Shown here piece after piece: positions 1,463 through 34,425 of a DNA stretch of 42,786 bases; within the stretch, counting starts at the first letter, position 1, and the number at the start of each line of letters is the position of its first letter. The notes under the pieces were generated by a model. That model saw nothing but the letters and a program-made list of their open reading frames with translations, was not told the origin of the DNA and did no database searches. Origin of the DNA: Syntrophomonadaceae bacterium (lineage in GTDB: Bacteria; Bacillota; Syntrophomonadia; Syntrophomonadales; Syntrophomonadaceae); contig JAAYCQ010000124.1 in assembly GCA_012729715.1 (NCBI GenBank), positions 1-42,786 of the forward strand. The letters are read 5' to 3'. The position numbers were made by a program, and so were the translations under genes.

Positions 1463-1525
1463 TTGGGTGGGTGGTAAAATTTAAGTCAGAGATTGGGTTT
1501 GGATATTCGGGAGGTGTATTTATTT

Positions 1526-1711
1526 ATGCAGACCATAAAGCAGGAAGCAATTGAATTAATTGCCAAATTACCAGATTCGGTGGCGATGGAAGATATCATG
1601 TACCATCTTTATGTTTTGGAGAAAGTGAAAAAGGGGCAGGAAGCTATAGAACAAGGCGAATATTTCGCTATTGAAGACCTTAAAAAAGAAGTAAAGACAT
1701 GGGAAAAGTAA
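1526..1711 (+). CDS. Small antitoxin of a RelE/ParE-type module
   Basis: A 61-residue protein, MQTIKQEAIELIAKLPDSVAM..., ending in a charged tail (AIEDLKKEVKTWEK). It is helical and acidic-basic alternating, like antitoxins that dock on RelE/ParE toxins through a C-terminal helix. I chose ATG 1526 because GGGAGGTG lies at 1509-1516; the frame could extend to TTG 1493. The last 13 bases overlap the toxin gene, the usual antitoxin-first coupled arrangement. The exact antitoxin family is not certain; the DIMYHLYVLEKVKKGQEAIEQGE section resembles antitoxins often annotated as DUF2281- or prevent-host-death-like. Confidence 0.65.
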   Translation: MQTIKQEAIELIAKLPDSVAMEDIMYHLYVLEKVKKGQEAIEQGEYFAIEDLKKEVKTWEK

Positions 1712-1998
1712 TCTGGTCAAAAGTTGCTAAAGATGATTTAAAACAGATATATAAGTATATTTCTCGGGATTCAAAATATTATGCTGATCAAGTAGTAGAA
1801 AAGATTATTGGAAAAACTGAACACCTGGAGAATTACCCGCATATGGGCAGGGTAGTTCCGGAAATTAACAACGAGAGCATTCGTGAATTATTAGTCTACT
1901 CATATCGTCTCGTTTACCAGATATCTCAAGATGATGAGATTCAGGTACTTGCATTAATCCACTCGAAAAAACAGTTTCCCGCTACTTTAGAAATCTAG
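1699..1998 (+). CDS. RelE/ParE family toxin
   Basis: A 99-residue RelE/ParE superfamily protein. Visible family features are the N-terminal strand KVIWSKVAKDDLKQIYKYISRDS, the central loop YPHMGRVVPE, the strand RELLVYSYRLVYQI and the C-terminal IQVLALIHSKKQF. Members are either ribosome-dependent mRNases (RelE) or gyrase inhibitors (ParE). The pattern of N-terminal helices and the YRLVYQI strand favour the ParE branch, but the activity cannot be settled by reading. It follows its antitoxin with a 13-base overlap. The module sits between two sugar-modification genes that would otherwise be neighbours, so it is probably a later insertion. Confidence 0.85.
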   Translation: MGKVIWSKVAKDDLKQIYKYISRDSKYYADQVVEKIIGKTEHLENYPHMGRVVPEINNESIRELLVYSYRLVYQISQDDEIQVLALIHSKKQFPATLEI

Positions 1999-2033
1999 TT
2001 ATGGAATTATTGATGAAACCCAAGGAGAATCAT

Positions 2034-3206
2034 ATGCATGAGTTTATTCCTTATGGCAGGCAAAATATAGATGAAGAGGATATAAAAGCGGTTATAGAGG
2101 CTTTGTGTTCTGACTGGATTACTCAGGGGCCGCGGGTGGAAGAATTTGAGGCCCGCGTGGCGGAGTACTGTGGGGCACAGTATGGCGTAGCTTTTAATAG
2201 CGGTACTTCAGCTCTACATGCGGCCATGTTCGCAGCGGGAATCGAATCCGGGGATGAGGTGATTACCACCCCCCTTACCTTTGTAGCTACAGCCAACGCA
2301 GCTCTTTATGTAGGAGCCCGACCCGTTTTTGTAGATATTGATAAGAATACCTACTGTATAAATATAGAAGGAGTAGAGGAAGCCATTACCCCTCGAACCC
2401 GGGCTATTGTGCCGGTAGATTATGCCGGCTATCCGATTGAAATGAAGCAAATTCGGGAGATTGCCGATAAACACAACTTAGTAGTAATCGAGGATGCCGC
2501 CCATGCTTTGGGAGCAGCACGAGAGGGAGCAAAAGTTGGCACTCAGGCAGATATGACCATGTTTAGTTTCCATCCGGTCAAGCATATCACTACCGGGGAA
2601 GGTGGTATGATTGTTTGCAATAGTCTAGATTATTACCGGCGCTTAAAACTCTTCCGCAGCCATGGCATCACTAAAGACTCCGGGTATTTGGAGGCCAATG
2701 ATGGCCCCTGGTATTATGAAATGCAGGAACTGGGATATAATTTCCGCATTACCGATATCCAGTGCGCATTGGGAATTTCCCAGATTAACAAGCTAGGAAA
2801 ATACATCAAGGAGCGCAACAGCCTGGCAAATAAATATGACCAGGCATTCAATAATGTAAGCTGGTTGCAGACTCCGCCGACACCATCTTCTGGAAGTAGT
2901 CACGCTTATCATCTTTATCCCTTGCTGCTGGCGGAACCGGTTAACCGTACAGAGTTTTTCACCTATCTCAGGCAGCATAATATCGGTGTTCAGGTACATT
3001 ACATTCCCGTACACCTGCAGCCCTATTACCGTCGTCGTTTTGGCTATAAACCAGGCGACTTTCCGAAAGCCGCGAATTTTTATGCCAGTGAAATCAGCCT
3101 CCCCTTATTTCCAGGTTTAACTCAGGAGCAGCAGGAATATGTAATTAAAACGGTAAAAAATTTCGGTGAAGGCCGCAGAAATGTTAAAGGTCTTGCAGGC
3201 GAATAA
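2034..3206 (+). CDS. pseC: PseC-type PLP-dependent sugar aminotransferase (DegT/DnrJ/EryC1 family)
   Basis: A 390-residue DegT/DnrJ/EryC1/StrS aminotransferase. Typical pieces are IPYGRQNIDEEDIKAV at the N terminus, SDWITQGPRVEEFE, FNSGTSALHAA, the PLP-stacking VIEDAAHALGA, and FSFHPVKHITTGEGG containing the PLP-binding lysine. This combination matches PseC, which aminates a UDP-4-keto-6-deoxy-amino sugar in pseudaminic acid synthesis. I place the start at ATG 2034, six bases after AAGGAG, rather than ATG 2001, which directly abuts the toxin stop. No PseF/G/H/I genes are visible here, so the complete pathway must lie elsewhere or the product is a simpler amino sugar. Its position directly before the flagellin supports a role in flagellin glycosylation. 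Confidence 0.85.
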   Translation: MHEFIPYGRQNIDEEDIKAVIEALCSDWITQGPRVEEFEARVAEYCGAQYGVAFNSGTSALHAAMFAAGIESGDEVITTPLTFVATANAALYVGARPVFVDIDKNTYCINIEGVEEAITPRTRAIVPVDYAGYPIEMKQIREIADKHNLVVIEDAAHALGAAREGAKVGTQADMTMFSFHPVKHITTGEGGMIVCNSLDYYRRLKLFRSHGITKDSGYLEANDGPWYYEMQELGYNFRITDIQCALGISQINKLGKYIKERNSLANKYDQAFNNVSWLQTPPTPSSGSSHAYHLYPLLLAEPVNRTEFFTYLRQHNIGVQVHYIPVHLQPYYRRRFGYKPGDFPKAANFYASEISLPLFPGLTQEQQEYVIKTVKNFGEGRRNVKGLAGE

Positions 3207-3284: not shown

Positions 3285-6200
3285 ATGATTATAAACCATA
3301 ATCTCTCTTCGCTTTTTACATACAACTCCCTCAAGCGTAGCGTAAAGGCTAGCGAAAATTTACTGGAAAAAATCTCTTCCGGCATGCGCATCAACCGGGC
3401 GGCGGATGATGCGGCGGGGTTGGCTATATCAGAGAAGATGCGCGGCCAAATTCGGGGGCTTTCTCGGGCAGTACAAAACGTGCAGGATGGGATTTCTCTG
3501 ATCCAGACCGCAGAAGGTGCCCTGAACCAGAGCCATGCGGTATTGCAGCGTATGAGGGAGTTGTCGGTAAAAGCTGCCAGTGACAATCTAACCTCGGGTG
3601 ACCGGCAGGAAATTCAAAAAGAAATTGAACAATGCAAAGAACAGCTGGATAACATAGCTTTAAATACTGAATTTAACGGTAAGAAGTTGCTGGATGGTAC
3701 TGCTTCGGTACTTGCCAGCAGCAGTGACCGTCGGGTGCAGGTCAATGTAAATGGCAGTCTGCTGTCCCGTAACCAATTTGGGGATATAGAGGCAGCTGAA
3801 GGCAACTATCGCCTGAATATTAAGGCTACTGCAGGTAAGGGACAGGTGCTGGGCAGTAATGCCTTAAGCAGCATGAACGATACCTTATCAGGGAGTATTA
3901 ATGTTACCAATATCCGTGGCGAATATTCGGGTATTACCGATTTTAGGAGCCGGGGATTAATGGAAGGTTCTTATCGCATTTCTACCCGCGAGACTCCTTT
4001 CGGGGGCATTACCTATTTGCAAAATAATGGTATGGAGAGCGCCAACCCCCTGGCCGATCTGGGCATAACCTCTGTTTCCACTTCTCCTAACCCTAATATT
4101 ATGCCTTATGGAGAATACAACATTGATATTGCCGACCAGGTGCCTTTTATGGCCCAGTTTGCGGACTTTGCTGATCCGACTACACCGGATATTGTCACCG
4201 GGGTAAATGCAACCGGGAGAAGTAACATTGATGTATCTATGGATATAACTGCAGGGCTGGGGGCCAGCGATGCTCAGAGCAGTCAGCTATGGGGTGATTT
4301 AACTGGCCCGGGCAGTGCTACTATGGTGACCCGGGCTAACTATGATATTAATATGAATACCCATTTTCAAGTGGTGGCCAGTGATACCCGTGATTTGCTG
4401 GCCAACAATGTTAACGCTGTTACCTATTACCGTTCAGAGGCTGGCAGTACAGTTGATCTTAATCTTACCTACCGGGCTCAGGCCGGGGAACAGGTGGTGG
4501 GCCATACCACCTATATCACTGCTTCGGGGGCTGAGATTACTCTACAGGATCATGATGATCCCTTGAAAAAAGTTACGGTAGCGGTAGGAGATATGACTGT
4601 TGATGAGGTGGCTGCGGCTTTAGAAAATGCCATCAATGCTCTCGAAGGTGGAAGCTATGCCGAATTAAATTTCACTGCAGTCGATGCCGGGGGTGGGCAA
4701 CACCGGATTGATGTTAGCAATAGTTCGGGATTAAGCATAGATATTATTGATAGTATTGGCAATTCCGGGACAGAGCTAGGAATTACTACCGGGCCAGGTG
4801 GTTTGGCAGATACGGGAACCATTACCGGAACTGCCCGGGATTTCAACCGGGAAATCAGCTTTAATGTTGGGGGTCAGACCCTGAACGATATCGCCGCTAC
4901 CATGGATACGGCCCTGGCTAGCTATAATATAGATGTGACTTCAGTAGATTTAGGAGCAGGTTTAAGCCGGCTGCAGTTTACCAATAACGGAGTACCGCGG
5001 CATATCTTTACTATAGATTACGATGCAGCAGCTACTTCTCTAGAAACAGAATTAAACATAGGTGGAATTACGGTTAATCCTGGCGGAGGTTCGGCTTTAT
5101 CCCACCGGGTGTACAATAATCACACTATAACAGTTAATGTAGGTGACCGGCATCTGGATCAAATCAACAGCCAGTTGAATACGGCTATGCAGAATGCTAT
5201 GGCACTGGATGATCTGGCAGCCAACAATGGGGTTAATCCTTTTTCTATGCACGACAACGGAGATGGCACCCGCAGCCTGTGGGTTGATAATACTGGTGCC
5301 AGTAACACCCTGTACGATTTGAGGATTGATGATAATGTTAATACCACGGCTTCCGAGTTGGGCCTGGATAATCTCCTAATAATCCGGGGAGCTAGCGACC
5401 ACAGCGGAACCGGGGTAGATTTCAACCGCAATCTGGGCACTATTGCTGCGGGTTCTAATATTGAGCAATGTTTGGCCACGGTACAAGGCTGGGGGTTCAA
5501 CCATAGCGCTAACTGGAGTAATTTGGCTAATACGCCGGGTTACGATGGTTCCCACCATAACGGCCAGTTTACCATTAGCAGTACCGAGACCGGCCCATTG
5601 CGGCGGGAAGTCATCTTTCGGGACAGCGCCGGCAAGGATCAGCTTTTTGGTGCCGGGGGTGATGTTTCTCTGGCTCCGGGTGGCAGTATAAGTACCCAAA
5701 CCTGGCAGGCTCGCGACCGGGTGCAGGTGAGGACTTCGTATACCGGAGTAGATAATAATGGGACTTTTTATGGCCTGCAGAGCCGGACTGACTGGTGGTG
5801 GGAGGGGGATGACGAGACTGCCAATCCTTTAGTAGGTTCAGGTGTATTGCCTTTTAGCTCCATTTACATCCCGGATAATGTTGATAATGGGGTAGAACTG
5901 GGTGGTTCCTGGTGCATGTTTACCCAGGCTCGGGGTGGAGCCAACCATGACCGCATAGATATTGAGACTATCGATGGCAATACCGGGGCTACTTTTGTTC
6001 CTACCGGTGGCCTGCATTTTAATGACGGGGTACTGGACAACAATGATACTGTGCTCATGCCGCAGCTAATTCGTACCGGAGCCGGAACTTTTGCTGTAGT
6101 CAACCATGATATAGATTTCGGACAGATTGCCACCCAGGCTAATGCTGTCATATATAGCGAACGCGGTGGCGCTGGAGGTTTTAATCATTACGCTCACGCG

Positions 6201-8489
6201 GCTTATGGTAATGATACTACTTATTATTTCGCCAATGGCGGAGACCCGGGTGACTATTTGCAGAATATAAGGGTATGGCGGCAGGAGGATGATAATGCTT
6301 CCTTACTTTTTACGGTGCTGACTCCGGGACAGCCTCCCATCGTACAGGTAGAAGGCAAGGGTTACAATCGTGATGGCACTGCCAATGACTTTGGACCGCT
6401 TACCATTGCTTTGACCGGCGGTCCCATCACCATTGGCTGTATTCAATTTGATGCACTGCAGGTAGGTGGAAATCTTGGCGTAAACGATAAATTTGTTATA
6501 AATGTAGCTGCCCGGGCAGGTGGAGGCTATCATGATGGTCCCCCGGTTCACTCCGATGCCAACATAGCTGTTTCCGGTAATCCCTGGACCGTAGGCGGGA
6601 GCACCATGGAATATCGATTTAATGAAAATGCGGAAAACGGCAAGGATTTTAACCTTCTGGGCTATTTTGTCCACCCCCTTAATGGCGGGGATAATAGTGT
6701 CGGAGTATGGACTGGTAGCTTGCTTTTGGAGGGTGTGGCAGCGGGAGGATTTGCTGCGGGCAATGGGGTAGGTTCTAATAATGTACACCTGGAGATAAAC
6801 TACAATGGCACTACTGACCACCGGGCCTCGGCCTTGCTTACTGGCTATTATTTTAAGGATATGCAACAGGGAGAAGCAATTACCCATTTTTTATCGGAAA
6901 CTGAATACCAGGCAGGAGAAAAGCAGAACGCAGCGGTAGTTTTTGAGGTGCTGGATATTACAGGAGGGCAGGTCATTTTGCGGGGTCAGGCTCATATTTA
7001 TGACCAGGACGGAAATTACCGCTATGCGTTTGATGACTATATAGCCCTGGGTGGGAACAATAGTAGTATTACCTTCTTTAATGATAGCGGTGCCGATGGC
7101 TTAAGCTTCAGTCAGTTTAATTTTGCTGATATTTCCCGCCTGCGGGTCGGGGATCGTTTTTCCCTGTTTCTATCTGCAGAGGGCGAACCTGCCGACAGCG
7201 ATGCCGATGAAATATATTTATTCAGCAGCGCCGACCGGCGGGATATTTATCCTCATGCCTGGCGCTTTCATGATGGGGTATTGGATCATCAGAATACCAC
7301 CCTCAGGACTTATCAGGTGAATTATGATACAGGTGACGTACATGAGGGGATAATGGATTTTACCATTGCTGATTTTCATGGTGGTACTGCTCTTGGATTA
7401 TTAGATAGCCTGCATACTCCAAGGGTAATCGATGAAGCGGTGCAGTTTGAGTCAGTTTTCCAGAAGAGTATTAACACAGCTACCGCTCATCATTATACTA
7501 AACTCAAAGATATTGCCCAGTTCTGGACCCCGGAAGGACGATTTTTATTGGAGCCGCCCCAGGAGTTGTTACTACAAAACGGGGATAAGCAAGTTAAGAT
7601 TATGCTCTATGGCGAAGACGAGATTGTAGATGTATTAGATCGCATTAACCAGGCTATTTATGATACTCTGGGTCAGGGTAAACTGGTGGGAGAGAAAAAC
7701 CGTTATAAGTTTGTTTCCTTTGTGGATAGCCCCTCCGATACCAGTAATCTAGAGCAACTGGAAGGGGGACTGGTAGTGCGCAGCGCAGTTTCCGGCAGCG
7801 GGGGCGAGTTTAATTTTATTGGTCCGGAGCCGCTCTTAAATGCCCTGGGGATTTCTGTACTGAGGAATGCCAGTAATAATGAATTGGATATTGAAGTGCG
7901 TGATGCGGTCAGTGGCAAGTTAATTAATAGTTTCCAGGCTCAATCGGACCAGAACATAGTGGGGGCCTTAAACAGCAACGTCGAATTGCGGATTGACTCC
8001 AGCCTGGGCCTGGAGGCTTCCTATGATGAGGCTGCTGAGGATTTCACCTGGCAGGGGGAAGAAAATATTCAGGTGACTGTACAACTGGTGGATAATGCTA
8101 CTGTATTGCAGATGGGGGCTAATCGGGGCCAGGTACAATGGCTGGACTTAATGGATGCCAGTTCCCAGGCCCTGGGGGTAGACGAAATCCTGGTAGTTAC
8201 CCGGGCTCATGCTGCGCAGGCCATGGCGGCACTGGATCGGGCTATTGCCAAGGTATCATCACAGCGTTCTTCACTGGGTGCCATGCAGAACCGTCTGGAC
8301 CATAGTATGAATAACCTGGCCGTAGCTCATGAAAATCTTACTGCTTCAGAATCCCGCATTCGGGATGCCGATATGGCCAAAAACTTGAGTGCCTATGTGC
8401 AGCAGGGCATTATAAGTGAGGCCGCTACAGCCATGCTGGCCCAGTCGAATCAAAAACCACAACTGGTAATGCAGTTACTGGGAAAATAA
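3285..8489 (+). CDS. fliC: Giant flagellin (1734 residues)
   Basis: Flagellar filament subunit with normal conserved ends and a hugely enlarged middle. Residues 1-140 carry the D0/D1 helices (LEKISSGMRINRAADDAAGLAISEKMR, LSRAVQNVQDGISLIQTAEGAL, NTEFNGKKLLDG). Residues from about 1633 to 1734 carry the matching C-terminal D1/D0 (SSLGAMQNRLDH, NLTASESRIRDADMA, ending QLLGK). About 1,490 residues between them form D2/D3-type surface domains, against none to 300 in ordinary flagellins. Flagellin_IN-like repeats begin near residues 428, 523 and 613, and an F-x-DGVLD-xxxT motif recurs near 913 and 1329. The start is ATG 3285 after AAGGAGAAAG. Cysteines, rare in flagellins, occur at 117, 729, 877 and 1052. 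The frame is intact throughout, so it appears functional. No zinc-protease HExxH was seen in the insert. Confidence 0.96.
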   Translation: MIINHNLSSLFTYNSLKRSVKASENLLEKISSGMRINRAADDAAGLAISEKMRGQIRGLSRAVQNVQDGISLIQTAEGALNQSHAVLQRMRELSVKAASDNLTSGDRQEIQKEIEQCKEQLDNIALNTEFNGKKLLDGTASVLASSSDRRVQVNVNGSLLSRNQFGDIEAAEGNYRLNIKATAGKGQVLGSNALSSMNDTLSGSINVTNIRGEYSGITDFRSRGLMEGSYRISTRETPFGGITYLQNNGMESANPLADLGITSVSTSPNPNIMPYGEYNIDIADQVPFMAQFADFADPTTPDIVTGVNATGRSNIDVSMDITAGLGASDAQSSQLWGDLTGPGSATMVTRANYDINMNTHFQVVASDTRDLLANNVNAVTYYRSEAGSTVDLNLTYRAQAGEQVVGHTTYITASGAEITLQDHDDPLKKVTVAVGDMTVDEVAAALENAINALEGGSYAELNFTAVDAGGGQHRIDVSNSSGLSIDIIDSIGNSGTELGITTGPGGLADTGTITGTARDFNREISFNVGGQTLNDIAATMDTALASYNIDVTSVDLGAGLSRLQFTNNGVPRHIFTIDYDAAATSLETELNIGGITVNPGGGSALSHRVYNNHTITVNVGDRHLDQINSQLNTAMQNAMALDDLAANNGVNPFSMHDNGDGTRSLWVDNTGASNTLYDLRIDDNVNTTASELGLDNLLIIRGASDHSGTGVDFNRNLGTIAAGSNIEQCLATVQGWGFNHSANWSNLANTPGYDGSHHNGQFTISSTETGPLRREVIFRDSAGKDQLFGAGGDVSLAPGGSISTQTWQARDRVQVRTSYTGVDNNGTFYGLQSRTDWWWEGDDETANPLVGSGVLPFSSIYIPDNVDNGVELGGSWCMFTQARGGANHDRIDIETIDGNTGATFVPTGGLHFNDGVLDNNDTVLMPQLIRTGAGTFAVVNHDIDFGQIATQANAVIYSERGGAGGFNHYAHAAYGNDTTYYFANGGDPGDYLQNIRVWRQEDDNASLLFTVLTPGQPPIVQVEGKGYNRDGTANDFGPLTIALTGGPITIGCIQFDALQVGGNLGVNDKFVINVAARAGGGYHDGPPVHSDANIAVSGNPWTVGGSTMEYRFNENAENGKDFNLLGYFVHPLNGGDNSVGVWTGSLLLEGVAAGGFAAGNGVGSNNVHLEINYNGTTDHRASALLTGYYFKDMQQGEAITHFLSETEYQAGEKQNAAVVFEVLDITGGQVILRGQAHIYDQDGNYRYAFDDYIALGGNNSSITFFNDSGADGLSFSQFNFADISRLRVGDRFSLFLSAEGEPADSDADEIYLFSSADRRDIYPHAWRFHDGVLDHQNTTLRTYQVNYDTGDVHEGIMDFTIADFHGGTALGLLDSLHTPRVIDEAVQFESVFQKSINTATAHHYTKLKDIAQFWTPEGRFLLEPPQELLLQNGDKQVKIMLYGEDEIVDVLDRINQAIYDTLGQGKLVGEKNRYKFVSFVDSPSDTSNLEQLEGGLVVRSAVSGSGGEFNFIGPEPLLNALGISVLRNASNNELDIEVRDAVSGKLINSFQAQSDQNIVGALNSNVELRIDSSLGLEASYDEAAEDFTWQGEENIQVTVQLVDNATVLQMGANRGQVQWLDLMDASSQALGVDEILVVTRAHAAQAMAALDRAIAKVSSQRSSLGAMQNRLDHSMNNLAVAHENLTASESRIRDADMAKNLSAYVQQGIISEAATAMLAQSNQKPQLVMQLLGK

Positions 8490-8490
8490 G

Positions 8491-8528
8491 ACTCGGTGAA
8501 ACTAGCTTCTCCTTATGCAACCAGTAAG
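8491..8528 (+). pseudogene. Remnant of a sugar dehydratase/epimerase gene
   Basis: Starting two bases after the flagellin stop codon, 38 bases match positions 933-970 of the upstream SDR gene at 33 of 38 sites. Read in the SDR frame they encode SVKLASPYATSK against PVKPASPYAASK, the region holding the catalytic Tyr-x-x-x-Lys. All five differences are transitions toward A or T. The match stops on both sides, so this is a fragment and not a gene. It implies that a paralogous or duplicated SDR gene once lay next to the flagellin. Confidence 0.6.
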
Positions 8529-8630
8529 TCCCCTTGCGCAGAAATAAAAAACAACCTTTCAAAACTAGCAGGAATATGTAATCTGGGTAGCGAATGATTA
8601 AAGATGGAATGTTTTAGGGGGTGTATTTAG

Positions 8631-8816
8631 ATGGAAATTGGCGCCCTGGCCAGTTTAGCCACCCTAATGCAGGCCCAGAGTCTGCAGCAGGCAGTCAGTA
8701 CCAGTGTAATGAAGATGGAGATGGATTCGGCCAAGCAATCCGCTCAGGCTTTAATCGAGATGATGGAAAAGTCGGCACTTCCCCATCTCGGCAGTCAACT
8801 GGATATAATTGCTTAA
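8631..8816 (+). CDS. YjfB-family putative motility protein
   Basis: A 61-residue protein: MEIGALASLATLMQAQSLQQAVSTSVMKMEMDSAKQSAQALIEMMEKS and a short tail. The alternating small-hydrophobic helix and the QQAVSTSVMKMAMD-type core are characteristic of the YjfB family, found near flagellin genes in Firmicutes and annotated as putative motility proteins of unknown function. AGGGGGTG lies 8-14 bases before ATG 8631. The gene lies between the flagellin and fliS, so it is probably expressed with late flagellar genes. The molecular role is unknown. Confidence 0.7.
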   Translation: MEIGALASLATLMQAQSLQQAVSTSVMKMEMDSAKQSAQALIEMMEKSALPHLGSQLDIIA

Positions 8817-8846: not shown

Positions 8847-9215
8847 ATGGAGAGCTTGATTACCTTATCTCGAGATATGGTTGAATTGAGTAATACTATC
8901 AAAGAAGGTCTGGATCATCTGGATAAAAGATTGGCAGATGGGCATTTGGAAGATAGCTATTATCTGTTCCAGGATATTATACAGGCATTTTATTCGGTTA
9001 CCCGGGCCATGGAATCTATACAATCCAGCATAGAGATTGAAACAGTAGTCCAGGCGGCAGATAAATTACTAAATGCGTTTGAAAAGTTATCAATTTCCTA
9101 TGAGGATCAAAAACTAAACCAGGCCCGTATGGATTTACAACTCATACTATCACCTGCCTTCTCCGCCTGGAGCAACGAATTACATAAATGTTTGCAACCT
9201 ATCATGGAATCCTAA
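8847..9215 (+). CDS. Uncharacterised helical protein in flagellar cluster
   Basis: A 122-residue protein with no motif I recognise. It is predicted all-helical from heptad-like hydrophobic spacing (LITLSRDMVELSNTIKEGLDHLDKRL, then LFQDIIQAFYSVTRAMESIQSSI and ARMDLQLILSPAFSAWSNEL), with no signal peptide or membrane segment. A good GAGGGG site precedes ATG 8847, and it follows the YjfB-like gene by 30 bases, so the two probably share a transcript. Size and helicity resemble flagellar export chaperones (FliT/FlgN/FliS class), but that is inference only. A terminator-like hairpin follows at 9240. Confidence 0.6.
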   Translation: MESLITLSRDMVELSNTIKEGLDHLDKRLADGHLEDSYYLFQDIIQAFYSVTRAMESIQSSIEIETVVQAADKLLNAFEKLSISYEDQKLNQARMDLQLILSPAFSAWSNELHKCLQPIMES

Positions 9216-10863: not shown

Positions 10864-11331
10864 GTGAATAACATTCTTATAGATAATATTATCCACAATT
10901 TTAATAAGCAATGGTTGCTATGTGAAAAAATGGCCGCCTCTGCCCAGGAGCAGCTGGAGGTGCTTAAACAGGCCGACAATGCGGGAATATCCTCTCAGGT
11001 TATGGATATTGTGGCCCAACGGCAAAAACTGCTGGAAGATTTGCAGGTGTTGGAGGATGAAAACCGAATTTTACAGGAGCAGGTAGTAAGTGAGCTGGGG
11101 ATTGATGAATTTACCTTAAGCCAGCTTGAGGCGAAGCTGGAAAATGAACAGTTTGCCCATCTTAAGGAAATGGTAAACCAGCTGGGTACTATTCTTAAAT
11201 CTATTAGCGAAATTGATGACCAGAGTCAGGTATTAATGAGAGCGAGCCTTACCCGGGCTAATAAAACTAAATCTCGGGCAAATAATAAGCAAGCCAGCCA
11301 GGCCTATAACCAGGCCAAAGAACTGAAGTAA
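10864..11331 (+). CDS. FlgN-like flagellar chaperone candidate
   Basis: A 155-residue helical protein starting at GTG 10864 behind AAGGGAAG. It has the FlgN-type pattern: an N-terminal helix, a central IVAQRQKLLEDLQVLEDENRILQEQV repeat, an LGIDEFTLSQLEAKL turn, a FAHLKEMVNQLGTILKSISEIDDQSQVLMRASL helix and a basic, Asn/Gln/Ala-rich tail. FlgN chaperones carry the hook-filament junction proteins FlgK and FlgL to the export gate. Those clients are not in the window. Assignment is by helical pattern and by being last in the flagellar run; a second FliT-like protein is the alternative. Confidence 0.5.
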   Translation: MNNILIDNIIHNFNKQWLLCEKMAASAQEQLEVLKQADNAGISSQVMDIVAQRQKLLEDLQVLEDENRILQEQVVSELGIDEFTLSQLEAKLENEQFAHLKEMVNQLGTILKSISEIDDQSQVLMRASLTRANKTKSRANNKQASQAYNQAKELK

Positions 11332-11478
11332 TTATGAATTATGAATTTTAAATTTTGAATTAAAGTAGAAATGCTTACGCATTTCTTTTTATTGCATTAG
11401 AATAGAATTGAAATAAAGAGAAATACGAAGTATTTCCACCATAATTAAGAATTCAAAATTAAAAATTAAAAATTATTA
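11331..11478 (+). repeat. AT-rich inverted-repeat element, copy A
   Basis: Imperfect AT-rich ends made of GAATT/AATTC-type words (about 11331-11361 and 11443-11478) enclose two small perfect hairpins: GAAATGC-ttac-GCATTTC (11368-11385) and GAAATAC-gaa-GTATTTC (11420-11436). The first hairpin is identical to one at 24369-24386 and the second to one at 21855-21871. It fills the gap after the FlgN-like gene; the rest of that gap to 11561 shows no gene. Confidence 0.7.
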
Positions 11479-12002: not shown

Positions 12003-12067
12003 CAAACAGGGGGACGTTCTTTTTGTTTGCTTGGTACAAGCAAACAAAAAGAACGTCCCCCTGTTTG
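12003..12067 (+). repeat. Perfect 31-bp-arm palindrome with GGGGGACGTTC core (REP-like)
   Basis: Positions 12003-12033 and 12037-12067 are exact reverse complements with only GTA between them. Each arm is itself a smaller hairpin: CAAACA and TGTTTG flank a GGGGGACGTTC-type core. The same core occurs in three other hairpins of this window with different flanking words. Confidence 0.85.
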
Positions 12068-16953: not shown

Positions 16954-18046
16954 TTGATTGAAGACCCGCAAGCAGTTTGCAGCGATACAATAAAACGACT
17001 TGGAGAAATGAGGGCTTCTCTTTGACATTGATGGCCAGAAACAAAGAGTAGAGCAACTGCATAAAAAAACTCTTAATGAAAACTTCTGGAATGAGCGTCA
17101 GGAAGCCCAGCAAATACTGAAAAGCATCAGTCAGATGCAGGAGAATATTGATAAATATTACGCTCTTTGGGATAAAGCCAATTATCTGAAGGAACTGCTG
17201 GATATGGCTCAGGAGGAGGGAGAACAGGAACTCTGGAATGATACCGTAATAGAATTACAGCAATTACAAAAGAATTTTCGGGAGTTTGAACTCCTGGTTT
17301 TGTTTTCTGGACTCCATGATGAAAGGGACGCCATTGTTTCCCTGCATGCTGGAGCCGGCGGTACCGAAGCCCAGGACTGGGTGGAGATGCTGCTGCGAAT
17401 GTACAGCCGCTGGGCGGAATCATCCGGGTATGCAGTGGAAATTATGGACTATCTGGCCGGTGATGAAGCCGGGGTTAAGAGTGTGACCTTTATGGTCAAG
17501 GGCAAATATGCTTATGGTAAATTAAAGTGTGAAGAAGGGGTACACCGGCTGATTCGGATTTCCCCCTTCGACTCATCCGGGCGCCGCCATACTTCTTTTG
17601 CTTCTATTTCTGTGCTTCCTGAGATAATTGAAAATGTAGAGGTAAATATAAATCCGGAAGAATTACGTATCGACACCTACCGCTCCAGCGGTGCTGGCGG
17701 GCAGCATGTAAATAAAACTGATTCCGCTGTCCGCATTACTCACCTGCCCACCGGTATTGTGGTACAATGTCAAAATGAGCGTTCCCAACATGCCAATCGC
17801 TTATGTGCCATGAAAATATTGACGGCTAAATTATATGATTTGAAGCAAAAAGAAGTGGAAAATAATTTACAGAATCTTAAGGGAGAATATAAAGAAATAG
17901 CCTGGGGCAGCCAGATTAGAACCTATACCTTAAACCCGTTTAACCTTATAAAAGACCACCGTACTAACCTGGAGGAAGGCAATGTCCAGGCCGTACTGGA
18001 CGGTGACCTGGACGATTTCATCTATGCCCGGCTACAGCAGAAATAA
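16954..18046 (+). CDS. prfB: Peptide chain release factor 2, with programmed +1 frameshift
   Basis: RF2 reads UGA and UAA stop codons. Frame 1 starts at TTG 16954 (GGGGTGA six bases upstream), encodes 23 residues ending ...GEMRASL and meets TGA at 17023-17025. Reading continues in the +1 frame from GAC 17024 (DIDGQKQRVEQLHKKTLNENFWNE), giving about 363 residues, normal for RF2. The SPF tripeptide that recognises the stop codon lies near residue 203 and the GGQ catalytic motif (SSGAGGQHVNKTDSAVR) near residue 248. The gene must be annotated across the shift; an ORF caller would truncate it to start at 17135. It follows motB, completing hpf-secA-motAB-prfB. Confidence 0.97.
17011..17026 (+). 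other. Programmed +1 frameshift site of prfB
   Basis: CTT TGA C (17020-17026) is the classic RF2 shift site, where slow reading of UGA lets the ribosome slip from CUU to UUU. An AGGG Shine-Dalgarno-like run at 17011-17014 lies five bases before CTT, two more than the three in Escherichia coli. Low RF2 raises shifting, so the gene regulates itself. Confidence 0.93.
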
Positions 18047-18182
18047 TTGAGAATTAAGAATTTAGAATTAAGAATGAAGGAAGGGAAAAACAAAGTTTTT
18101 CCCCAATTATAATTTATCAAATAATAGAAATGCTTGCATTTCTACAATAATTATTAATTTTTAATTATTAATTCTTAATTCA
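18045..18182 (+). repeat. AT-rich inverted-repeat element, copy B
   Basis: AT-rich ends (18046-18074 and 18147-18182) around two hairpins: GGGAAAAAC-aaa-GTTTTTCCC (18083-18103) and GAAATGC-tt-GCATTTC (18127-18142). It fills the whole gap between prfB and the transketolase gene. Confidence 0.7.
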
Positions 18183-18202
18183 AACCATAAGGAGCGTTGA
18201 AG

Positions 18203-19030
18203 GTGAAGGAGATTACAGAAGAAGCAGTAGCAATTACTATCGAAAAGGCCCGGCAGATGCGCCGAAACATTATTAAAATGCTGGGGCAGGCAGGTTCAGG
18301 GCATACCGGCGGGTCACTCTCCGCCAGCGATATCGTAGCCTGCCTGTATTTCTGGGAAATGAATGTTGACCCGGCTAATCCCCATTGGCCTGACAGGGAC
18401 CGTTTTGTTCTAAGTAAAGGACACGCTGCACCGGTACTATATGCGGTGCTGGCAGAGAAAGGTTTCTTTCCAATCGATAACCTCAATTCTTTAAGGACCC
18501 TGGGCAGTCCCCTGCAAGGACACCCGGATATGCGCAAAGTCCCCGGGGTGGAAGCTTCCACCGGTTCCCTGGGACAAGGTATATCCTGGGCAGTGGGAAT
18601 GGCTCTGGCCGGGAAAATGGATAAGAAATCTTACCGGGTTTATACCATGCTCGGTGACGGGGAAATAGAGGAAGGCATGGTCTGGGAGGCGGCTATGGCC
18701 GCAGCTCATTATAAATTGGACAATCTTATGGCCTTTGTTGATCATAACGGGCTGCAGATTGATGGCCGGGTACAGGAAGTTATGTCCCCCCTGCCTATTC
18801 CTGATAAGTTCAGAGCCTTCGGTTGGGAAGTCCTGGAGATAGATGGGCATGATCATAAACAGATAATGGCGGCTTTAAATAGCGCCCGAACCGTATCGGG
18901 CCGACCTACAGCCGTAATTGCTCATACTATAAAAGGTAAAGGCTGTTCCTTCATGGAGGACCGGGTAGAATGGCACGGCGTAGCCCCCAAACCCGACGAA
19001 GTCAAAAAAGCCCTGGCAGAACTTTTATAA
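18203..19030 (+). CDS. Transketolase, N-terminal subunit
   Basis: A 275-residue thiamine-diphosphate domain equal to the first half of a normal transketolase. Motifs are GQAGSGHTGGSLSASDI, the GHAAPVLYAVL helix, STGSLGQGISWAVGMAL and the ThDP-binding GDGEIEEGMVWEA...NLMAFVDHNGLQIDG (GDG-x(26)-N type). It transfers two-carbon units in the non-oxidative pentose phosphate pathway together with the C-terminal subunit encoded next. I prefer GTG 18203, eight bases after AAGGAG, over TTG 18197, which is only two bases away. Split transketolases are common in Clostridia and archaea. Confidence 0.93.
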   Translation: MKEITEEAVAITIEKARQMRRNIIKMLGQAGSGHTGGSLSASDIVACLYFWEMNVDPANPHWPDRDRFVLSKGHAAPVLYAVLAEKGFFPIDNLNSLRTLGSPLQGHPDMRKVPGVEASTGSLGQGISWAVGMALAGKMDKKSYRVYTMLGDGEIEEGMVWEAAMAAAHYKLDNLMAFVDHNGLQIDGRVQEVMSPLPIPDKFRAFGWEVLEIDGHDHKQIMAALNSARTVSGRPTAVIAHTIKGKGCSFMEDRVEWHGVAPKPDEVKKALAELL

Positions 19031-19125
19031 TTTTGAATTCTTAATTTTGAATTTTGAATTATGGAAGGGATAAACGTAGTTTATCCCAACCTTAATTAAG
19101 AATTAAAAATTAAAAATTAATAATT
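19029..19125 (+). repeat. AT-rich inverted-repeat element, copy C
   Basis: AT-rich arms (19029-19060 and 19092-19125) around one perfect hairpin, GGGATAAAC-gta-GTTTATCCC (19067-19087). It sits between the two transketolase subunit genes. The stem differs from those of copies B and E by paired changes. Confidence 0.7.
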
Positions 19126-21722: not shown

Positions 21723-21728
21723 AACAAC

Positions 21729-21909
21729 AGAATTGAATTAAGAATTGAGAATTGAGAATTAAGAATTCAGGTAGCAATGCTTCCGCATTGCCTTTATGTA
21801 TATCAACTTTATTTGTACAACTTACTTCTTTTTATTTACATATTGTAATAAATAGAAATACGAAGTATTTCAACAATAATTTTTAATTATAAATTATTAA
21901 TTCTTAATT
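21729..21909 (+). repeat. AT-rich inverted-repeat element, copy D
   Basis: AT-rich ends (21730-21767 and 21878-21909) around GCAATGC-ttcc-GCATTGC (21774-21791) and GAAATAC-gaa-GTATTTC (21855-21871). The former is a paired-change variant of the GAAATGC hairpin in copies A, B and E. It fills the gap between ftsX and the M23 peptidase. Confidence 0.7.
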
Positions 21910-23183: not shown

Positions 23184-24332
23184 TTGAAAAAAAATGCTTT
23201 TCTTAAAGGCGTAAACACTTTCCTGGCAGTAATGGGTGCTATTTTTGTAGCTGGAATTTTGTATATATTTCTTACTAATGCTGGTGGTTTAAGTACCTTT
23301 ATCGGTGTGCTGGGTCTGGTTAAGACCCAATCTTTGTATGATATTGACAATACTAACGTTTTTGAAGGTGCTGCTTCGGGTATAGTATCTTCACTTAATG
23401 ACCCCTATTCCGAATACCTGGACAAAAACACCTGGCAGGATCTGCAAATTAGGTTAGATGCGAAGTTCGGTGGTATCGGAGTATATATCCTGCAGGATGA
23501 CCAGGGTAGACTAAAAATTTTATCACCTATAAAAGGTACCCCAGCATTTAAAGAAGGAATCAAGCACGGGGATATTATTACCAAGATAAATGGTGAAAGT
23601 GCAGTAGGTATGAGCCAGGATGAAGCTGTACATTTGATGCGGGGAGACCCGGGAACCCAGTTATTGCTTAGTGTTTATCGCGGTTCTGATGGTAAAGAAC
23701 ATGATTTCCGGATTATTCGGGAGATAATCAATGTGCCTTCAGTAGAGGCACGAGTTATTGATAGTGCCAATCAGATAGGCTATATTAGTCTGAATCAATT
23801 TGGCTCCCGTTCAGCTGAGGAAATGAAAGAGAGTGTAAATGATTTGCTGGACAACAAGAAGGTCAGAGGGCTTATTTTGGATCTGCGCAACAACGGCGGG
23901 GGCGATTTTGATGTTTCTATCGATATCGCAGGGATATTCCTGGATGGGGATAAGGTAGTCAGCTCAGTCGATGCCCAGGGTAATGAAAAGGTTTACCAGG
24001 CCAGCAAAGGTAAAGTGGATATTCCCCTGGTAGTGCTGGTAAATGAAGATAGTGCCAGTGCTTCGGAGATTCTGGCAGCAGCTTTGCGAGATAATCAGCG
24101 GGCAGTCCTGGTAGGTAAGAAAACTTTCGGCAAGGGATTAATGCAAACCGTATTTCCACTGCGTAATGGCGGTGCCCTGAAGCTTACTACCCAGAAATAC
24201 TATACCCCTGCCGGAATAGATATAAATGAAGTTGGAATAACCCCGGACTACGTAGTAGAGAATAATGCTGATGAAGATAAAGACCTGCAACTGGATAAAG
24301 CCATATCAGTTTTGAAGAAACAAATATATTAA
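23184..24332 (+). CDS. ctpA: Carboxy-terminal processing protease, S41 family
   Basis: A 382-residue membrane-anchored serine protease. An N-terminal signal anchor (about residues 9-30) is followed by a PDZ domain (GGIGVYILQD...GIKHGDIITKINGE) and the S41 core with LDLRNNGGGDFD, the nucleophile motif NEDSASASEILAAAL and the general-base lysine in GKKTFGKGLMQT. It cleaves C-terminal tails of extracytoplasmic proteins. Placed after an FtsEX-linked hydrolase, it may process or turn over wall enzymes; that is inference. I chose TTG 23184, 11 bases after GGAGG, over GTG 23166, which lies before that site. Confidence 0.94.
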   Translation: MKKNAFLKGVNTFLAVMGAIFVAGILYIFLTNAGGLSTFIGVLGLVKTQSLYDIDNTNVFEGAASGIVSSLNDPYSEYLDKNTWQDLQIRLDAKFGGIGVYILQDDQGRLKILSPIKGTPAFKEGIKHGDIITKINGESAVGMSQDEAVHLMRGDPGTQLLLSVYRGSDGKEHDFRIIREIINVPSVEARVIDSANQIGYISLNQFGSRSAEEMKESVNDLLDNKKVRGLILDLRNNGGGDFDVSIDIAGIFLDGDKVVSSVDAQGNEKVYQASKGKVDIPLVVLVNEDSASASEILAAALRDNQRAVLVGKKTFGKGLMQTVFPLRNGGALKLTTQKYYTPAGIDINEVGITPDYVVENNADEDKDLQLDKAISVLKKQIY

Positions 24333-24616
24333 TTTTGAATTTTTAATTTTAAATTCTTAATTAACGTAGAAATGCTTACGCATTTCCTTTTATTACAATT
24401 AACTTATCTTGACTGCTATTTTCATGCTTGTTTGCGTGTGCCCTTTAGGGTATGTCCAATTATTCATTCGAATGCATATTTATTGTTTTTGCAGTGGAAC
24501 CAATCTATTATTTTGAATTAAGGGGTAAAAGACAAAGCCTTTTATTGTTTATAATGGGAAAGCGGTAGCTTTCCCCTCCATAATTCAAAATTAAGAATTA
24601 AAAATTCAAAATTAAC
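24330..24616 (+). repeat. AT-rich inverted-repeat region, copy E
   Basis: AT-rich ends (24330-24362 and 24581-24616) enclose GAAATGC-ttac-GCATTTC (24369-24386, identical to copy A) and GGGAAAGC-ggta-GCTTTCCC (24556-24575). The middle, 24390-24510, has no gene and no clear repeat; it could be two neighbouring elements. The following 24617-24744 shows nothing recognisable beyond the next gene's ribosome site. Confidence 0.6.
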
Positions 24617-28137: not shown

Positions 28138-30957
28138 GTGAAAGATTATATATATGTAAAAGGGGCCCGGGAACATAATTTAAAAAATATAGATGTGACT
28201 ATTCCCCGGGATAAACTGGTGGTTTTTACCGGAGTGTCAGGTTCGGGCAAGTCCAGCCTGGCCTTTGACACCATTTACAGTGAAGGCCAGCGGCGTTACG
28301 TGGAATCTCTTTCCACCTATGCCCGGCAGTTTCTGGGGCAGATGGACAAACCTGATGTGGACTATATCGAGGGGCTTTCCCCGGCCATCTCCATAGACCA
28401 GAAATCCACCTCCAATAATCCCCGTTCAACAGTGGGAACGGTAACCGAGATATATGATTACCTGCGCCTGCTTTTTGCCCGGATAGGTACCCCGCATTGC
28501 CCCCATTGTCACCAACCCATTAAAAGGCAAACTGTAGACCAGGTGGTGGACAATCTCCTGACTCTGCCCGAAGGCAGCAGAATCAAGGCTCTGGCTCCGG
28601 TAGTCAGAGCACAAAAGGGAGAACATAAGAAAACCATTGATAATCTCTTCCGCGATGGTTTCGGACGGTTGCTGGTGGATGGTTATGAATACACCTCAGA
28701 TGAAGAAATTCAACTGGACAAAAATAAAAAACATAATATTAGTGCGGTAGTAGACCGGCTGGTAATAAAAGATAGTATCAGGAGCCGTCTGGCCGAGTCC
28801 CTGGAACTGGCTTTTGAACTAAGCGAGGGTATAGTGGTTATCCAACTGCTGAGGGATAGTGGTGAAGAGGAAATGATGTTCAGTCAGGATTTTTCCTGTC
28901 CGGAATGCGGCTTTAGCCTGCCGGAATTAAGCCCGCGCATGTTTTCCTTTAACAGTCCTTTCGGAGCCTGCCCGGAGTGTGACGGTCTAGGCGAAAAACG
29001 GGAGATTGACCCGGCTCTGGTGCTGGATATGAATAAAAGCCTGGCCGATGGGGCGGTTATTCCCTGGTCCAATAATTTTTTCACCTTTTACAACCAGGTT
29101 CTGGCTACCATGGCGGCAAAACATAAAATTCCTATGGATCAGCCCTTAAAGGAATTAAGCCGGAAGCAACTGGATATCATTCTATACGGAAACGGTCAGG
29201 AGCGCTTTAAAGTCAATTACATCAATTCCTACGGTGAAGCCAGTGCTTTCCGCAGCAGCTATGAAGGGATAGTAAATAATCTGAGGCGCCGTTACCATGA
29301 GACAAAATCAGATGCTTCCCGGGAGGAAATTGAAAAATACATGACCATAAGCCCCTGTCCCGGTTGCCAGGGCAAGCGGCTAAAACCAGAAATACTGTGG
29401 GTATTAATTTCCGGGAAATCTATTAACGAAGTAAGCTCAATGTCAATACGGGACGCCCTGGACTTTTTCACCAATCTGGCTTTAAGTGAAAGGGACACCT
29501 ATATTGCCCGTCAGATAACTAAGGAAATCAAGGAGCGGCTAAATTTTCTAGTAGATGTGGGGTTGGATTACCTGACCCTGGATCGCGCCGCGGGGAGTTT
29601 ATCCGGTGGTGAAGCCCAGCGCATACGGCTAGCTACCCAGGTGGGTTCCAGCCTGGTGGGAGTTTTATATGTACTGGATGAGCCCAGTATAGGTTTGCAT
29701 CCCCGAGACAACGACCGTCTGCTGGCTACCCTGAAAAGGCTGCGGGATCTGGGCAATACCGTAATTGTAGTGGAACATGATGAGGATACTATTCGCAATG
29801 CCGATTATATTATTGATATTGGTCCCCATGCCGGGGTTAACGGCGGGCAGGTGGTAGCCTCGGGCAGCCTGGAGGAGATTATGGAAACGGCCGATTCACT
29901 TACCGGCCAGTATTTATCCGGGCAGCTGGATATAGAACTGCCTCCCTCGCGCCGCAACGGTAATGGAGGATTTGTAGGGGTACGGGGAGCAGCTCAGCAC
30001 AACCTGAAAAACATTAATGTTGATATACCCCTGGGTAAAATGGTGGTCATAACCGGGGTATCCGGTTCCGGGAAAAGCACCCTGGTAGGGGATATCATGT
30101 ACCCGGCTCTGATGAAGAAACTGCATGGGGGCAGGCACCGCCCCGGTTTGCATCAGGACATAGAGGGAGTAGAACAGATTGACAAGGTAATTAATATTGA
30201 CCAAGCACCTATAGGCCGTACCCCGCGGTCCAATCCCGCTACCTATACCGGGGCTTTTGATGGGATCAGGGAGCTTTTTGCCAGCACCGCAGAGTCACGG
30301 GTTAGGGGTTATAAGCCGGGACGTTTCAGTTTTAATGTGCGTGGGGGTCGATGTGAAGCCTGCTCCGGTGATGGTATCATAAAAATTGAGATGCACTTTC
30401 TGCCTGATGTATATATCCCCTGTGAAGTCTGCAAGGGAAAGCGCTACAACCGGGAGACGCTGGAGGTTAAGTACAAGGGTAAGACCATATCTGATGTATT
30501 GGAAATGACAGTTGATGAAGCAGTGGATTTCTTTGAAAATATTCCCCGGGTCCACCGCAAGCTCAAAACTTTGCAGGATGTAGGCCTGGGTTATATTCAA
30601 CTGGGACAACCGGCGCCTTCTTTATCAGGAGGAGAAGCCCAGCGGGTGAAACTGGCCACTGAGCTCTCCCGCCGCTCTACCGGCAAGACTTTGTATATAC
30701 TGGATGAGCCTACTACCGGGCTTCATAAGGATGATGTTAAACATTTGCTTAGCGTACTAAACATTCTTGTAGATAACGGTAATACCGTCCTGATTATCGA
30801 ACATAACCTGGATGTTATCAAAACTGCAGACTATATAATCGACCTGGGACCGGAAGGCGGAGAACAAGGGGGAGAAATAATAGCCCAGGGCTCCCCCGAA
30901 GAAGTCGCCGCCAACCCACTTTCCTATACCGGAAAATACTTGAGGAAAGTACTATAG
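28138..30957 (+). CDS. uvrA: Excinuclease ABC subunit UvrA
   Basis: A 939-residue ABC-type ATPase dimer that searches DNA for bulky damage and loads UvrB. It carries two ATPase modules ([10 protein letters not shown] with [12 protein letters not shown] and [23 protein letters not shown] with [12 protein letters not shown] and [11 protein letters not shown]), CPHC/CPEC zinc modules in the first half and the CEACSGDG...CEVCKGKRY zinc finger in the second. The start is GTG 28138 after GGAGG; an open frame to 28027 overlaps uvrB and is not UvrA-like. Its stop codon lies within a 68-bp palindrome. Confidence 0.97.
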
Positions 30958-31023
30958 GTGACAGGGGACGGTTCCTGTGTCACCTTTAGCTAAAGGTGAC
31001 ACAGGAACCGTCCCCTGTCACCT
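30956..31023 (+). repeat. Perfect 68-bp palindrome between uvrA and uvrC (REP-like pair)
   Basis: Bases 30956-30989 and 30990-31023 are exact reverse complements. Each half is also a hairpin, GGTGACA against TGTCACC around a GGGGACGGTTCC core, so the unit can fold as one long stem or two short ones, like a paired REP (BIME). It begins inside the uvrA stop codon and ends 18 bases before uvrC. Confidence 0.9.
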
Positions 31024-31041
31024 CTTAAAAAGGGTGAGATT

Positions 31042-32832: not shown

Positions 32833-32876
32833 CAGTGGAGGTGACAGTGGACGGTTCCCCTGTCACCTCGGGTTTT
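32828..32876 (+). repeat. REP-like hairpin at the uvrC stop, possibly a terminator
   Basis: The 12-mer GGTGACAGTGGA occurs twice in tandem (32828-32839, 32840-32851). The second copy is part of the stem GAGGTGACAG/CTGTCACCTC (32838-32847 with 32860-32869) around a GGACGGTTCC-type core. GGGTTTTTG follows, so it may act as the uvrC terminator. Confidence 0.75.
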
Positions 32877-34301: not shown

Positions 34302-34374
34302 ATAACTTCGAATCTATCGGCTTGACTAACTGTTTAGAGTGAGGCGTGAGGGGTCAGCTCTCTTCCTTCCATAA

Positions 34375-34405
34375 GTCTTAATTCTAAATTTTTAATTCTT
34401 AATTC
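34375..34405 (+). repeat. AT-rich element, partial copy F
   Basis: A single AT-rich end (TCTTAATT...TTTTTAATTCTTAATT) resembling the right or left ends of copies A-E, without a facing arm or hairpin. It lies 21 bases before the glucokinase start. The rest of the 34302-34425 gap holds nothing recognisable. Confidence 0.45.
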
Positions 34406-34425
34406 CTTCAGAGGGGTGTTATGGT

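Follow-up and report, generated by a model that had tools for sequence, protein, structure and literature searches.

A decayed SDR gene fragment between a giant flagellin gene and yjfB in a Syntrophomonadaceae bacterium

Between the giant flagellin gene and the yjfB-like motility gene of a Syntrophomonadaceae bacterium (assembly GCA_012729715.1) we observed a decayed 41-nt fragment of an SDR gene (positions 8488–8528, forward strand), about 7.5 kb downstream of the intact SDR gene. The fragment comprises the codons around the YxxxK catalytic motif. Probably, a redundant copy of the SDR gene, perhaps as part of an SDR-DegT pair, once stood between the giant flagellin gene and yjfB, and the fragment is its non-functional remnant. 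All positions refer to the window, that is, the whole analyzed stretch of 42,786 nucleotides (contig JAAYCQ010000124.1).

Results

Structure of the locus

The order in this part of the window is HicBA-like pair, SDR, ParE-type gene, DegT, giant flagellin, fragment, yjfB, 122-aa frame, and FliS. Four genes on the forward strand are essential for the analysis. The intact SDR gene (524–1462; NAD-dependent epimerase/dehydratase, Pfam PF01370 and PF16363), the parent or sister of the fragment, is an open frame with orthologs in G001–G004 and other genomes, and is found at E ≤ 1e-100 in 14 of the 54 genomes of the family. Its intact neighbor encodes a DegT/DnrJ/EryC1 aminotransferase (2001–3206; PF01041). 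The giant flagellin gene (3285–8489; 1734 aa, PF00669 and PF00700) separates the fragment from the intact sugar genes. It is found at an identity of at least 67% in only three of the 54 family genomes, and the same three are the only ones among 63 genomes when the wider order is searched at E ≤ 1e-80. Flagellins of more than 1000 residues are known, Firmicutes among their sources, as described in PMC6248924. Finally, the yjfB-like gene (8631–8816; PF14070 and family survey) serves as the fixed right-hand neighbor for the comparison of relatives.

The surroundings contain several other elements. The HicBA-like pair (43–500) is named by resemblance and has no Pfam match; its second frame is interrupted here and intact in G004. 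The spacer genes between SDR and DegT vary by species, with the ParE-type gene in the window (1463–2000), a different toxin-antitoxin-like pair in G002 and G003, and none in G004 (for comparison, L096 7038–7740 and L009 2112–2688). The conserved 122-aa frame between yjfB and FliS (8847–9215) also has no Pfam match. Its six aligned members share 31–95% identity, and a contig scan with the protein alignment yielded four loci, all from metagenome-assembled relatives already in the comparison set. AT-rich repeats with AATTAAGAATT-like arms as inverted pairs, which we take to resemble miniature mobile elements, are located between genes at 11317–11474, 18034–18183, 19018–19125, 21723–21909, 24318–24614, and 34362–34409. 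Long hairpins whose cores are GGGACGTTC or GGGACGGTTCC, presumably similar to REP-type repeats, occur at 12003–12067, 30956–31024, and 32839–32869, the first two being perfect. A motif similar to these hairpins is also present within a DegT duplication of G042.

The fragment and its parent gene

In the repeat search of the window, positions 8488–8528 and 930–970 (the latter within the SDR gene) form one repeat family, with 35 of 41 bases identical (85%). Read in the SDR frame, the fragment corresponds to the catalytic SPYxxSK region. Identity is at background level on either side of the match, whose edges are thus sharp, and the longest exact run common to both copies is 15 bases. When positions 880–1020 were used to search the genome itself (2,674,193 bases in 298 contigs), the SDR gene was found first and the fragment second, with E = 1.2e-6 and 48.2 bits; the third match had only E = 0.33. 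The alignment score of 52 was reached by none of 300 dinucleotide shuffles, which had a maximum of 24. The initial annotation had reported a match to the SDR catalytic region right after the flagellin stop, and both the match and its position are confirmed. The match remains significant after correction for search length, since 48.2 bits correspond to E of about 3e-6 for an all-against-all search of the window. It begins within the flagellin stop codon (8487–8489), which its first two bases overlap, and hence the position was given correctly. On these statistics, with E of about 1e-6, chance is excluded as the source of the match. No other sequence of the SDR gene or of neighboring genes is detectable in 8529–8612, with the exception of a doubtful 16-base match to DegT, and a search of viral contigs for exact occurrences of a 37-base part of the fragment gave none.

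Comparison with SDR genes of relatives points to a local source. Of its 41 positions, the fragment shares 36 with the SDR gene of G004, 35 with that of its own genome, 34 with G003, and 33 with G002, compared with 28–31 for G001, G025, G042, G043, and G044. The closest similarity to SDR genes of its own lineage indicates that the source of the fragment is this locus rather than an old paralog. Its separation from the resident SDR gene is probably about as old as these species, and it would have drifted as non-coding sequence from then on.

Differences between the fragment and the SDR gene

The initial annotation emphasized that all changes are transitions. This is correct for positions 8491–8528, where all five differences from the SDR gene are of the C-to-T or G-to-A type, and incorrect for the full 41-nt match, where a sixth difference, at position 8490, is a C/G transversion. 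Moreover, the emphasis carries no weight. In the comparison of the resident SDR gene with its ortholog from G004, 66 of 86 differences are transitions; against this background five transitions out of five are expected about 27% of the time, and so the pattern is unremarkable. A strand-specific editing process was considered and is not needed, since both C-to-T and G-to-A changes are present.

The distribution of changes over codon positions is more informative. Four of the six differences between the fragment and the resident SDR gene affect codon position 1 or 2. In the comparison of the intact orthologs, codon positions 1, 2, and 3 contain 12, 8, and 66 differences, respectively, so that positions 1 and 2 account for 20 of 86 (Fisher P = 0.04 for the two spreads, with small numbers). 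Since changes in the fragment ignore codon position, it has evidently been free of coding constraint and decayed as non-coding DNA.

Gene order around yjfB in related genomes

Matches to yjfB were found at 15 places in 14 of the 54 family genomes. Ten of these neighborhoods were examined gene by gene; the remaining five places are in G037 (two), G014, G022, and G039. In G001, which belongs to the same genus, the sole SDR copy directly precedes yjfB, and there is no flagellin. In G041–G044, DegT directly precedes yjfB, with the full order SDR-DegT-yjfB in G042, G043, and G044. The giant flagellin gene directly precedes yjfB in the window, as does its ortholog in G033. The gene before yjfB is neither a sugar gene nor a flagellin in G029 and G053, and the contig ends before yjfB in G004. 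Another change of order is seen in G040, where the 122-aa frame is followed by SDR, DegT, and FliS.

The initial annotation suggested that relatives might retain an intact SDR gene 3' of the flagellin or have different flagellins between the same flanks. Neither arrangement is seen: no intact SDR gene lies between flagellin and yjfB in the ten examined neighborhoods, and no other flagellin occupies the space between the same flanks in the examined neighborhoods of the 54 family genomes. SDR and DegT are present in G002, G003, and G004, but each contig stops within DegT or shortly after it; the slot thus coincides with contig ends, and the predicted intermediate is not visible there. The gap between flagellin and yjfB in G033, which represents another genus, is clean: it lacks the fragment and is about 30 bases shorter. 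Within the same genus, the slots are either unassembled or different. In G038, the giant flagellin ortholog is located in another place, with no fragment behind it. In G024 and G025, SDR and a distant flagellin-like gene are about 3 kb apart and in opposite orientations, which was not counted as the sought arrangement.

A possible remnant of DegT

The 16-base match mentioned above (8567–8582, forward strand) agrees in every base with positions 3130–3145, at the 3' end of DegT, and follows the SDR fragment after a spacing of 38 bases. The resulting order, SDR fragment, DegT end, and yjfB, is the order of the intact genes in G042–G044. With ten DegT 3' ends as the reference panel, the score of the match is equaled by 8 of 500 shuffles; in a search of the whole genome, the match has E = 0.25. 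A similar weak match to DegT ends is seen in the SDR-yjfB gap of G001, where 4 of 500 shuffles score as high, and there is none in the gap of G033 (223 of 500 shuffles). We regard a second remnant, derived from DegT, as no more than suggested at this position.

Similar remnants in flagellar modification islands

The second flagellin locus of the same genome (G000), on contig C37, provides a parallel. Here, a gene for a 926-aa flagellin is followed by a 26-nt scrap of maf (23 matches) and an 83-nt scrap of the start of a cytidylyltransferase gene (67 matches). Farther along come a DUF2920 gene and a repeat of the flagellin 3' end, and after these maf and the cytidylyltransferase gene in intact form. 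The DUF2920 gene (L042 2538–4601) is bounded by direct repeats of the flagellin 3' end, with the decayed maf and cytidylyltransferase on one side. Judged by sequence, the scraps are what is left of a second copy that has decayed in gene order between direct repeats, and they make a clearer case than 8488–8528.

Comparable scraps, as direct repeats, are found in relatives. In G001 (L031 3370–3423), a 56-nt scrap of another SDR gene, 93% identical, lies four bases behind the stop of a neighbor gene and is separated from its parent by a segment with a short frame; in G002, the two genes adjoin, with neither scrap nor segment. In G042, 155 nt of the DegT 3' end are repeated at 90% identity directly before yjfB. 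In G029, the SDR 3' end runs into the DegT 3' end.

We considered enrichment of such scraps in the islands and rejected it. Counting only direct pairs of a coding and an intergenic copy, we observed 6 pairs in about 341 kb of islands (25 regions, namely the whole window and 24 island regions) versus 10 pairs in about 903 kb of controls (59 stretches from G000, G001, and G042; 5 further inverted pairs were left out), which is no clear excess. The islands of G000, G001, and G042 alone contain 6 pairs in 148 kb, a higher ratio obtained from genomes that were picked for showing scraps. Several pairs, both from islands and from controls, look like interspersed repeats, and therefore no enrichment is claimed.

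Discussion

Origin of the fragment

A natural explanation of these observations is decay of a redundant copy. A duplication, or a single-crossover insertion carrying the resident sugar genes, would produce a second SDR gene, possibly together with DegT, and the order SDR, DegT, flagellin, second SDR(-DegT), yjfB. The second copy would then have been deleted to scraps and mutated without coding constraint. We favor this scenario because SDR or SDR-DegT precedes yjfB in relatives (G001 and G042–G044), because the 16-base DegT match, though weak, sits in the right order, and because a clearer decayed copy, that of maf and cytidylyltransferase, exists at C37 in the same genome. The suggestion of the initial annotation that the site once held a second sugar gene, or that part of the locus was copied by a recombination event, is thereby supported as a general explanation, short of proof. 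As such the explanation is an ordinary one, a gene remnant: the fragment is a commonplace scar of evolution, and nothing indicates that it has a function itself.

The main competing explanation is a single templated insertion. In this case, about 41 bases of the SDR gene would have been copied once from 7.5 kb upstream during break repair or illegitimate recombination and then decayed, and there would never have been a full second gene. Both edges of the fragment are sharp, the rest of the SDR gene is undetectable in the gap, and in G033 the gap behind the same flagellin lacks the scrap and is about 30 bases shorter; these points favor such an event. Double illegitimate recombination and homology-facilitated illegitimate recombination in bacteria are subjects of studies cited in PMC8116780. 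However, a templated insertion explains neither a possible DegT remnant that follows the gene order nor the presence of SDR or SDR-DegT at the same place in relatives; at C37, moreover, the parallel spans several genes rather than a single patch. On balance we consider it unlikely, while regarding it as a serious competitor.

It is very improbable that the fragment is an artefact of the metagenome assembly or a chance match. The genome is fragmented into 298 contigs, and three close relatives break at the same slot. Nevertheless, no exact word longer than 15 bases is common to both copies, and 15-base exact matches are too short to mislead the usual assembly words; a chance match is excluded by the E-value given above.

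The initial annotation further proposed that repeated homology on both sides of the flagellin gene allows exchange of flagellin cassettes. The two SDR-like stretches are indeed in direct orientation, one on each side of the flagellin, and the giant flagellin is patchily distributed (three of 54 genomes, as above). Still, homologous recombination usually needs roughly 25–50 bases, and with a longest exact run of 15 bases exchange by this route is unlikely. In addition, the fragment is decaying without constraint, the interval would include also the 3' half of SDR, the toxin-antitoxin pair, and DegT, and the examined relatives have neither a different flagellin between these flanks nor an intact SDR gene 3' of the flagellin. 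Selection of the flanking homology for cassette exchange is thus hardly credible. Least plausible of all is a functional non-coding element whose resemblance to the SDR gene is due to descent or chance: flagellin 3' untranslated regions, where the fragment lies, commonly hold terminators, promoters, or RNA elements, but the fragment folds no better than shuffles (z = 0.46), neither a terminator-like site nor a forward-strand promoter-like site was found at it, the Rfam search of the window gave no match, and the element is absent behind the giant flagellin orthologs of G033 and G038.

Relation to known gene remnants

Decaying pseudogenes in intergenic spacers are described for Buchnera in PMC3164680, and PMC9336565 deals with gene fragments, broken or without function, across prokaryotes. 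Like bacterial intergenic gene remnants, the fragment is a short piece of a known gene that has an intact relative in the genome, and it drifts without coding constraint. Unlike them, it has as a parent an intact neighbor 7.5 kb away and retains only 41 nt, perhaps with a second remnant of the next gene. The locus also resembles insertion-duplication, or tandem duplication with deletion, in that direct repeats of a resident gene flank a segment, one repeat being intact and the other decaying, a pattern that is fuller at C37. Compared with fuller duplications, only 41 nt (perhaps plus 16 nt) of the second copy remain, and the event itself is a matter of reconstruction. Short templated insertions through illegitimate recombination could likewise have this size and such sharp edges, whereas the gene order SDR then DegT is not expected of such patches. 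Our search of the literature for duplications in maf or glycosylation islands, and for templated insertion in bacteria, found nothing on point.

Implications for flagellar modification islands

A broader scenario can be put forward tentatively, as a generalization that we consider rather doubtful at present. The flagellar modification islands of the family might renew their cargo, such as the giant flagellin, DUF2920, and toxin-antitoxin pairs, by repeated insertion-duplication. Incoming or duplicated segments carrying resident sugar genes would land beside them, and the displaced copies would decay to ordered scraps that record exchanges of flagellin and glycosylation genes.

The ordered remnants next to both flagellin loci of this genome are worth keeping in view, and the parallel at C37 makes the redundant-copy scenario testable by strain-level genomes. 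If it is true, such scraps are fossil marks of the rearrangement of flagellin and modification genes, and they could be used to rebuild the gene order that existed prior to the arrival of the flagellin.
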